Both the position numbers and the translations under genes were made by a program. The notes under the pieces are model-generated. The model was not told where the DNA came from and made no database searches. It saw only the letters and a list, made by a program, of their open reading frames with translations. A DNA stretch of 64,000 nt from Limnochorda sp. LNt (lineage in GTDB: Bacteria; Bacillota; Limnochordia; Limnochordales; Geochordaceae): assembly GCF_035593265.1 (NCBI RefSeq), contig NZ_CP141614.1, positions 744,001 through 808,000 on the forward strand, read 5' to 3'. Position 1 is the stretch's first letter; every line of letters begins with the position of its first letter. Positions 42,916 through 46,951 of the stretch are shown here, one piece after another.

Positions 42916-43407
42916 CTATTCCTTCCTGACGGCCTGGCCCCGGGCCTCGCGCAGGCGGTCCAGGGTGCGGAGCACCTCCTCGGCATGCCCGTCCACTTTG
43001 ACGGAGTCGAAGACGTGGGCCACTCGCCCCTCGGGGTCGATGAGGAAAGTGGTGCGCCGGGCGCTGGTGCCGCGCTCGTTGAGGACGTCGAGCCGCCGCG
43101 AGATGCTGCGATCGTGGTCGGAGATGAGCGGGAAGCGCAGCCCGCACGCATCGGCGAAGTGACGATGGGATGCCGCGCTGTCGACGCTGACCCCGACCAC
43201 CTCGGCGTCGCGCGCCCGCAGCGCCTCCAGGATGGCGTCGAAGGCCTTGGCCTCCCGGGTGCAACCGGGGGTGTTGTCCTTGGGGTAGAAGTAGAGGACC
43301 AGCCACTTGCCCAGGAACTGCCGCGTCGACAGACGCGTGCCGGCCTGGGTGGGACCCGCCACCTCGGGCATCTGGTCGCCGGGCCCGACCGCTACGGCCA
43401 CCGCCAT
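42916..43407 (-). CDS. Thioredoxin-dependent peroxiredoxin (BCP/PrxQ-like)
   Basis: A 163-residue peroxidase that reduces H2O2 and organic hydroperoxides in the cytosol. The peroxidatic centre is FYPKDNTPGCTREA with Cys49. The usual resolving Cys five residues later is missing (Lys at that position), so this is a 1-Cys-like or atypical form; another Cys in ADACGLRFPLISD might resolve. The conserved Arg lies in SARRTTFLIDPEG. ATG 43407 follows GAGAGG. It lies between the exported beta-rich protein and the divergent SDR gene. With the superoxide dismutase at 62 kb it marks an oxygen-exposed lifestyle. Confidence 0.92.
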   Translation of the reverse strand: MAVAVAVGPGDQMPEVAGPTQAGTRLSTRQFLGKWLVLYFYPKDNTPGCTREAKAFDAILEALRARDAEVVGVSVDSAASHRHFADACGLRFPLISDHDRSISRRLDVLNERGTSARRTTFLIDPEGRVAHVFDSVKVDGHAEEVLRTLDRLREARGQAVRKE

Positions 43408-43561
43408 CGACCTCTCTTTCCGACGGGTCGTGGGTCGACACGGGATATTCTGGCGCGGCGGCGCGGCGGCTTTCAAGGGATGGCCCGTCCGCCCTGCGAA
43501 TCTCGCAAGGAGACGGCACGGGGCCCCAAGGGGTGCCGCCGTCACGGGGAGGGACGCATCG

Positions 43562-44429: not shown

Positions 44430-45590
44430 TCAGGCCCGCAGGTGCTCCAGCCCCTCGCGCCAGGGGTAGCGGAGCAGCAGATAGGCGACGAAGGCGATCC
44501 CCGCTACCAGCAGCAGAGCGAACAAGAGCAGAGGGGCCAGCTGAAGGCTGACCCGCCACATCTCCGGCTGAAGGTAGGGAGCGAGCGCGTCCATCCGCAC
44601 CCCGTGCCGGGCCACGGCCAGCCCGGCGGCCATGACCGCCGTGCCCGCCACTGCGCCCGCCGCCCATCGAAGGGCACCGGGCCCGCCGGGCCGGGACCGG
44701 GCGGCTCGCTCCGCCAGGAGCCAGGCGCCGGCCATCACGACGCCACCGGCCACGGCGACGACCACTCCTGTCCGCACCAGCGGCACCGTCTCGACGACCG
44801 GCCCCAGGGCCACCCCGTACCAGGCCGAGGCCGCCGCCTGCAGGGCGACGGTGACGGCCAGGGCGCGGCCCACGGCCACCCGTACCCGGCCAGCGGGCTC
44901 GGGTGCGACGCGCGCCGCCACGTGCGCCACGGCCAGCACGTACGACAGGCCGACCAGCAGCAGGTGGAGCACCGCGTGCACGTAGCGGGGCCACATGGTC
45001 GGCTCGGACAGGTTGAGCGCCGTGCCCGACAGGTTGAAGAGCTCCCCGTACCGCTCCGGATGCGGGAAGAGGCTCATGTTGGTCACCAGCGCGAAAGCCG
45101 TCCAGACCAGGGCGCCCAGCGTCACCGCCAGGCCCCAGGCCGGGGCCCGGGGACCTCGGTTGCGGCGCAGGGCCCAGGCGTACAGGGCGTAGTAGCCCAC
45201 GATCAGCACGGGCACCACGCTGATCCAGCTCCAGGCCACGAAGGTCGATGCCGTGTAGAAGAACGGCCCGTACAGCACCTGCACGAAGAGCAGGGGAGCC
45301 ACCCCCGTCGTGATGGAGAAGGCCATGGCCACGGGCAGGGCCTGGGAGAGATGGGCGCCCAGCAGCCGGGCGGGCGCGGCCCTGAGCTCGTCGTGCGAGC
45401 GTCCCACCACGGCGCTGGCCAGGCCGATGGCCGTGCCCCCCAGGGTCACACCCACGAAGAGCGTGTGCAGCGTGTACGTCAGGACCAGCAGCGCCTGCAG
45501 CAGCCCGGGCGGCGCGGGGATCCCGATGGGATCGGGGCCGGGCAGCATGGCCGGCATCATCCTCCACATCTCCTCTCCCGGCAGGTTCAT
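44430..45590 (-). CDS. Membrane partner subunit of the bd-type oxidase (CydB-position)
   Basis: A 386-residue membrane protein with about nine or ten helices, in the position of subunit II of a bd-type oxidase. Visible features are GLLQALLVLTYTLHTLFVG with a conserved His, a VTLGGTAIGLA turn, STFVAWSWISVVPVLIVGYY, NLSEPTMWPRYVHAVLHLLL (more His) and a C-terminal LLLFALLLVAGIAFVAYLL. It lacks recognisable classical CydB motifs, so it may be the special partner of the cytochrome-c-bearing subunit. ATG 45590 overlaps the stop of that gene (ATGA), showing coupled translation. Function in quinol or cytochrome c oxidation is inferred. Confidence 0.75.
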   Translation of the reverse strand: MNLPGEEMWRMMPAMLPGPDPIGIPAPPGLLQALLVLTYTLHTLFVGVTLGGTAIGLASAVVGRSHDELRAAPARLLGAHLSQALPVAMAFSITTGVAPLLFVQVLYGPFFYTASTFVAWSWISVVPVLIVGYYALYAWALRRNRGPRAPAWGLAVTLGALVWTAFALVTNMSLFPHPERYGELFNLSGTALNLSEPTMWPRYVHAVLHLLLVGLSYVLAVAHVAARVAPEPAGRVRVAVGRALAVTVALQAAASAWYGVALGPVVETVPLVRTGVVVAVAGGVVMAGAWLLAERAARSRPGGPGALRWAAGAVAGTAVMAAGLAVARHGVRMDALAPYLQPEMWRVSLQLAPLLLFALLLVAGIAFVAYLLLRYPWREGLEHLRA

Positions 45591-46951
45591 GAGATGGGCT
45601 CGCCGGGCAGCGGCGGTCGGCCCGCGGCCGACGGCGCCTCGGGCGGGTGGAGGGAGGCCAGCCACCGGGCCAGGGCGCGCCGCTCCTCGGGAGAGCCCAT
45701 GAAGGGCGGCATGTAGGGCTTGAGCGTGTCGAGGTGGGCGAGCTGGAAGTCGAGGTAGGCCTCGCTCCAGCCCTTGACCAGGGGCTGCACGTCGTTGTAG
45801 CCGCCCAGCGAGTGGCAGATGGAGCACTGCAAGCGGAAGAGCTCCTGGCCGGCGGCAAGGTCCGCCGCCTGCGCGTGGGCCTGCTCGCCCGACACCGAGA
45901 CGGACGCCGTCCGGGCCGGGTCGGCGAAGCGGGCGGAGGCCAGCACCCCTCGGGCGGCGAGTCCGGGTTGCTGCCAGACGTAGACGCCGTTGGAGTAGAG
46001 GTAGCCGTAGATGGTGTAGGGCTTGCGGATGCCCTCCCGCACCCACTCGGTGCCGCCCGTCGCGATGAGCCCCGCTGCCAGCAGCACGGCCGCCAGGGCG
46101 CCTGTGGCCGTCCGAGGGGACCGCAACGGCCCCAGCACACCGACGGCGAAGACGATGGCGGAGATGACCACGCTGCCGGCGAACATGAGGGAGACCGGCG
46201 CCGCTCCGCCCAGCACCAGCATCCGGGCCCCGACCGGCACCACCTGCAGGTACCAGATGGTCGTCAGCGGCAGCAGCAGCGCGCCGGGCACCAGCCACCA
46301 CGAGGCGAACCGCACCACCCGGTCTCGGTCCGGCTGGGAGGCGATGCGGGTGGCCGTCGCCAGCCCCCACAAGCCGGCCAGGGCGGCGGCCGCGGCGCTC
46401 CGGCCCACCAGGCTCGGCCAGTAGCTGGGGTTGAAGAAGCCGTGCCAGAAGTCGCCCGTCTCGAGCCAGCGCCCCGGGGTCAACATGAAGCTGATGATGC
46501 CGTTGATGATGACCAGCGACATGAAGGCGCTGACGGCGTACGCCCAGCCGTAAAGCATGTGGGTCCGGGCGTCCACCCGGTGCCACGAGGCGACGTAGAG
46601 CAGCACCGCCGCGATCTCCGCGATGAAGAAGACCCACTCGATGGCCCACGCCCAGACGAAGGTGCGGATGAGCACGGATGTGGTGGGCGGACTGACCAGG
46701 CCGATGGTGAACCAGATGCCCACCCCCGTCAGGGCGCCGAAGACGGCGGTGAGCAGCAGGAAGAACCGGGAGTGAGCCTCGACGTACGCCAGCACCTCTT
46801 GCCGGCCCTCGCGGCGAGCCCACCGCTCCGCCAGCACCAGGTAAAGCCCGCCGCCCACCGCGAACATGGCCACGAAGACGTGCAAGATGGCGACGATGCC
46901 GACGGTGAGCGAGCCTCCCAGGCGAGGGATGGCCCAAAAGGGGTAGTTCAC
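45587..46951 (-). CDS. bd-type oxidase subunit I (CydA-like) with C-terminal cytochrome c domain
   Basis: A 454-residue protein. The first about 340 residues form a CydA-like membrane core: FWAIPRLGGSLTVGIVAILH (haem-ligand His region), FAVGGGLYLVLAERW, TGVGIWFTIGLVSPP, VFFIAEIAAVLLY and EWVREGIRKPYTIYGY. The usual long Q-loop is short or missing. A cytochrome c domain follows: CSICH at residues 376-380 binds haem c and PYMPPFMG offers an axial Met. GTG 46951 has AAGGAGGGGG 8 bases upstream. Such c-domain members of the bd superfamily exist elsewhere. Electron entry from cytochrome c, or from quinol through haem c, is possible. CydD/CydC are not in the window. Confidence 0.85.
   Translation of the reverse strand: MNYPFWAIPRLGGSLTVGIVAILHVFVAMFAVGGGLYLVLAERWARREGRQEVLAYVEAHSRFFLLLTAVFGALTGVGIWFTIGLVSPPTTSVLIRTFVWAWAIEWVFFIAEIAAVLLYVASWHRVDARTHMLYGWAYAVSAFMSLVIINGIISFMLTPGRWLETGDFWHGFFNPSYWPSLVGRSAAAAALAGLWGLATATRIASQPDRDRVVRFASWWLVPGALLLPLTTIWYLQVVPVGARMLVLGGAAPVSLMFAGSVVISAIVFAVGVLGPLRSPRTATGALAAVLLAAGLIATGGTEWVREGIRKPYTIYGYLYSNGVYVWQQPGLAARGVLASARFADPARTASVSVSGEQAHAQAADLAAGQELFRLQCSICHSLGGYNDVQPLVKGWSEAYLDFQLAHLDTLKPYMPPFMGSPEERRALARWLASLHPPEAPSAAGRPPLPGEPIS

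Follow-up and report, generated by a model that had tools for sequence, protein, structure and literature searches.

A probable cytochrome c-fused bd-type oxygen reductase with a CydA-like partner subunit in Limnochorda sp. LNt

In classical bd enzymes haem b558 takes electrons from quinol, and to our knowledge the bd oxidases that have been tested all use quinol as the donor. A gene pair of Limnochorda sp. LNt encodes a bd-type core that ends in a cytochrome c domain, and raises the question of how electrons would enter such a protein and whether it is an oxygen reductase at all. The window analysed here is a stretch of 64,000 nucleotides, and coordinates refer to it unless stated otherwise.

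The gene pair and its products

The first gene, as read from the sequence, runs on the minus strand from a GTG at 46951 to a TGA at 45587 and encodes 454 residues. Its stop codon (45589-45587) overlaps the start codon of the second gene (45590-45588) in the tetranucleotide ATGA. The main elements are the following.

46967-46961, minus strand: Shine-Dalgarno-like AAGGAGG, 9 nt before the core GTG
45587..46951, minus strand: core subunit, predicted CydA-like oxygen reductase with a C-terminal cytochrome c (454 aa, GTG start)
44430..45590, minus strand: ATGA-coupled partner, CydA' paralogue of 386 aa, not CydB (profile and structure comparison)

A scan for sigma-70-type promoters gave nothing above chance. 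Upstream lies a large helicase-like reading frame, judged from its translation, and downstream a convergent SDR-type dehydrogenase gene on the opposite strand, followed by a peroxiredoxin gene. With these flanks, the pair is a stand-alone two-gene unit. The peroxiredoxin (AhpC/TSA) gene, located at 42916-43416 on the minus strand beyond the pair and the SDR gene, is probably unrelated.

Residues 17-216 of the core protein matched Pfam Cyt_bd_oxida_I (PF01654, E 1.9e-11) and residues 363-431 matched Cytochrome_CBB3 (PF13442, E 6.5e-8), both above the curated cut-off. The span, the Pfam matches and the alignment bear out the initial annotation, which had placed at 45587-46951 a CydA-like core with a CSICH haem c domain, coupled by ATGA to a second membrane gene. 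The core family profile found Geobacillus CydA (5doq) with an E-value of 1.8e-9 and the 30 classical CydAs with an E-value of 3.4e-17, and the HMMER alignment with 5doq extended to the E378/E445 helix. When the core model was used in Foldseek, the best matches were all CydA chains, 5doq_A being the first (E 3.7e-8). The AlphaFold model (pLDDT 90) shows long membrane helices, about eight, followed by the c domain, which on our reading of the alignment appears to replace CydA helix 9.

Haem ligands in the core and in the partner

A scan of 84,980 prokaryote genomes identified 35 loci, and 33 relatives, with 37-51% identity to the core protein of the window, were taken into the alignment. Ligands were compared between these 34 members (window included) and 30 classical CydA sequences, including that of E. 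coli. The following core positions were located.

46304..46903, minus strand: conserved bd core, residues 17-216, with H24 (E. coli H19), E105 (E99), E112 (E107) and H131 (H126) (Pfam and alignments)
46034..46036, minus strand: E306 (E. coli E445, high-spin haem ligand), followed by R309 (R448), each in 34/34
46400..46402, minus strand: R184, invariant Arg (34/34) at or adjoining the position of the b558 ligand His186

The residues H24, E105, E112, E306 and R309, which correspond to E. coli H19, E99, E107, E445 and R448, were invariant in all 34 members. The distance between E105 and E112 was seven residues in every member, while in classical CydA it is eight in 23 sequences and seven in the other 7. 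Geobacillus CydA, which is without the Leu101 insertion, has the same seven-residue glutamate spacing as the core (PMC8951039). The low-spin haem presents a different picture. H186 and M393, the ligands of haem b558, were found in 30/30 classical CydAs, whereas neither had a counterpart in the 34 members of the core family, in which helix 7 has no conserved Met. The initial annotation had regarded absence of the haem ligands as the mark of a non-oxidase relative; the active-site ligands are all in place and the two b558 ligands are gone, a loss that the initial annotation had not noticed.

In the same alignment of 34 members with 30 classical CydAs, the Q-loop, including K252 and E257, had no counterpart in the core. 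Between the His186 position and E445 lie 120-145 residues in members and 193-260 residues in the classical proteins. The Q-loop, earlier described as poorly visible, is therefore truly absent. The pattern is best explained by a core that would have neither a quinol site nor a b558-type haem.

The partner yielded zero matches to Pfam and NCBIfam. Comparison of profiles with hhalign matched it to the core profile (E 1.8e-13) and to the profile of 30 classical CydAs (E 8.3e-8); HHalign of the partner profile with the single E. coli CydA sequence gave no match, and the similarity to CydA was significant only with the 30-sequence profile. The TM-scores of the partner model were 0.52-0.67, mostly above 0.63, with CydA chains and about 0.5 with CydB chains. 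The identification of the partner as CydB was rejected because there was no match to a CydB profile, the structure was nearer to CydA, and a search of the whole genome detected no CydB (PF02322). By these profile and model comparisons, the "divergent membrane partner" of the initial annotation is a paralogue of CydA (CydA'), which that annotation had overlooked. Two of its residues are of particular relevance.

45465..45467, minus strand: partner H42, aligned with core H24 and E. coli H19 (28/28 His)
44976..44978, minus strand: partner H205, aligned with the classical b558 ligand His186 (28/28 His)

The b558 histidine that is absent from the core is thus present in the partner, which according to the alignment lacks the active-site acids. 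A conserved second haem ligand, equivalent to M393, was not found in the partner alignment. Partner M324 was considered for this role and rejected: it is near-invariant elsewhere and Leu in the window, so the role could not be general. The Q-loop is absent from the partner as well, with only 103-124 residues separating H205 from R328. Partner and core genes adjoin in 31 of the 35 loci; of the four exceptions, three are cut off by a contig end, and in the fourth, L019, there was no partner within the 1.3 kb available. It is conceivable, although we hold it doubtful, that the classical three-haem set has been split between the paralogues, the core having the two active-site haems plus haem c and the partner the low-spin b histidine. 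In such a case the heterodimer would be the functional unit and electrons would cross the subunit interface.

The fused cytochrome c and candidate electron donors

The C-terminal region of the core includes these features.

45659..45865, minus strand: C-terminal cytochrome c domain, residues 363-431 (PF13442; AlphaFold pLDDT about 84-96)
45812..45826, minus strand: CSICH haem c attachment motif, residues 376-380 (motif and alignment)
45710..45712, minus strand: Met414, probable sixth haem c ligand

CxxCH was invariant in the 34 aligned members and Met414, the likely ligand already suggested by the initial annotation, was kept in 33/33 of those reaching the position, which indicates that the haem c motif is not there by chance. 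The number of CxxCH motifs per protein was one in 14 (window included), two in 19, and eight in 2. The last two, from L013 (Cloacimonadota) and L025 (Desulfovibrionaceae), have a seven-motif tail fused behind the mono-haem c domain, and the tail of L013 matches the MtrC/MtrF and cytochrome c7 families. Electron entry from the C-terminal side would produce such repeated growth of c-type domains there. In these two loci (L013:5001-7637 and L025:4998-7622) the CydA' gene is found upstream of the core gene rather than downstream. With the established bd topology, in which the N-terminus is outside, the C-terminal c domain would also face outward, to the side on which haem c is attached. Two members of the CcmC/CcmF family of cytochrome c assembly proteins are encoded in the genome, and ResB (System II) was not found in it. 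Taken together, the absence of the Q-loop, K252/E257 and the b558 ligands, the invariance of the haem c, and the existence of relatives with one, two or eight motifs make it well supported that electrons would enter through the fused cytochrome c.

In the genome of Limnochorda sp. LNt, genes for a cytochrome b, a Rieske protein and a dihaem cytochrome c form a cluster, and a cupredoxin gene lies next to it.

L046 (own genome 853500-864500), 2809-6672, minus strand: bc-type complex with cytochrome b6-like protein, Rieske protein and dihaem cytochrome c (279 aa), cupredoxin beside; candidate donors

The cytochrome c families searched passed at two sites of the genome only, the c domain of the core and the dihaem protein. 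No redox or electron-transfer gene recurred among 64 genes flanking the homologues, so the gene context lends no support to a particular donor. The simplest chain would run from menaquinol through the bc-type complex to the dihaem cytochrome c or the cupredoxin, then to the fused haem c, the active-site haems and O2. There is no other CydA in this genome. Three strong matches to haem-copper oxidases were found, and hence the bd-type enzyme is not necessarily the main oxidase; it may serve a secondary or low-oxygen branch.

Proposed reaction, alternatives and relatives

OR-C proteins are members of the bd superfamily with a fused C-terminal haem c, and the group was reportedly defined by the phylogenomic work of Murali, Gennis and Hemp (ISME J, 2021). 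On this definition, the haem c fusion and the lack of a quinol site would make the pair an OR-C member: the pair and OR-C share the bd core, the absence of a quinol-binding site and a C-terminal haem c motif on CydA. We consider it likely that the pair forms a CydA-CydA' heterodimeric bd-type oxygen reductase of this cytochrome c-fused kind, fed by a periplasmic carrier. The gene structure, the domains, the presence and absence of ligands, the loss of the Q-loop, the paralogy of the partner and the conserved pairing were established directly, and we infer haem occupancy, O2 reduction, the donor and the proton route as follows. A periplasmic one-electron carrier, probably the dihaem cytochrome c of the bc-type complex or the adjacent cupredoxin, would reduce the fused haem c (C376/C379/H380, M414). 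Electrons would then pass to two high-spin haems of the core, held by H24/E105 and by E306; there O2 would be converted to water, the protons coming from the cytoplasm by way of E112. CydA' would have a stabilising role in the complex and might carry a b-type haem on H205 and/or H42.

The initial annotation had left open a relay from quinol by haem c. In this arrangement, quinol would be oxidised at a new site, perhaps by a haem b near partner H205, and haem c would only carry electrons to the core. The invariant partner histidine aligned with H186 is compatible with it, as is the fact that the gene context names no soluble donor. However, neither subunit has a Q-loop or any known quinol site, K252/E257 are absent, no conserved residue of the partner corresponds to M393, and the near-invariant Met324 is Leu in the window. 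The relay has found no positive evidence, and we regard it as unlikely. Another possibility is that the protein is a non-oxidase relative, with the bd fold put to NO or peroxide reduction or to a cytochrome c-linked electron-transfer module. The identity of the core to tested enzymes is low (14-18% in structural alignment), and the authors describing the related Nitrospina protein doubted a classical oxidase role (PMC3578206). Nevertheless, every residue of the O2 site is invariant over 34 diverse sequences and the E105-E112 spacing is that of Geobacillus CydA, and such a function seems quite improbable. That the pair is a CydAB of the ordinary, quinol-oxidising type whose tail is decayed or fused, as the PF01654 match and a probable automatic annotation as cytochrome ubiquinol oxidase subunit I might suggest, is hardly credible in view of the absent Q-loop and b558 ligands, a genome without CydB, and a tail kept across phyla.

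The proposed c-fed heterodimer can be compared with known systems. The core shares with classical qOR enzymes (Geobacillus 5DOQ, E. coli CydAB) the fold and the equivalents of H19, E99, E107, E445 and R448, but it is without Q-loop, K252/E257, H186, M393 and helix 9, has gained a haem c, and is paired with CydA' instead of CydB. The caa3 and cbb3 oxidases are, like the proposed enzyme, terminal oxidases with their own haem c as electron entry; their haem-copper catalytic core is unrelated to the bd core and only the working principle is common. The bd superfamily has been split into qOR (with the quinol site), OR-C and OR-N (PMC13189123, PMC10839748, PMC12342949). The OR-N proteins of Nitrospira and Nitrospina resemble the pair in that a CydA-CydA' composition has been proposed, Q-loop residues are missing, and cytochrome c is a likely donor (PMC10839748, PMC3578206, PMC12342949). 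The authors of the Nitrospinota study considered the family likely to oxidise cytochrome c (PMC10839748), and a complex III-like role was suggested for the Nitrospina bd-like protein (PMC3578206). The Nitrospina OR-N protein has 14 predicted helices according to its authors, compared to about 8 plus the c domain in the core and, unlike the core, is not described as having a fused c domain in the available part of the text.

Enzymes of this kind have already been recognised from genomes; what the alignments add is the apparent complementary split of haem ligands between the subunits and the predicted octahaem variants in other phyla. We know of no cytochrome c-bearing member of the bd group that has been tested in the laboratory. 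If such enzymes are fed by cytochrome c, this family would form the terminal step of a branch that runs through the bc complex, and the reading of O2 respiration from genomes of Acidobacteriota, Armatimonadota, Zixibacteria, Planctomycetota and Bacillota would be altered. With only two genes and, probably, cultured thermophilic relatives of its lineage, this compact form would be a practical test ground for the donor of bd families without a quinol site.

The groups represented among the loci include Acidobacteriota, Armatimonadota, Zixibacteria, Planctomycetota, Methylomirabilota and Cloacimonadota. Of 60 genomes closely related to that of the strain, only four encode a c-fused core: one belongs to the same genus, two to the same family and one to the same order. 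In the tree, the window and these four make up one clade, which is supported. For isolated Limnochordales, a paper notes cytochrome c oxidases in two of the strains and a "cytochrome bd ubiquinol oxidase" in one, and the c-fused form is not mentioned in the available part of that paper (PMC11456536). A genome of the same family (L057, genome G003) has a classical quinol-type CydA alongside the c-fused one, while the window genome has the c-fused one only. A histidine five residues after H24 (position 29) occurs in 32 of the 34 aligned members; two sequences, the order-level relative and L025, have Gln, and the window (46865-46867) and its three closest relatives have Met. Compared with the OR-C family, the lineage thus has Met in place of a nearly invariant His and may differ in some step.
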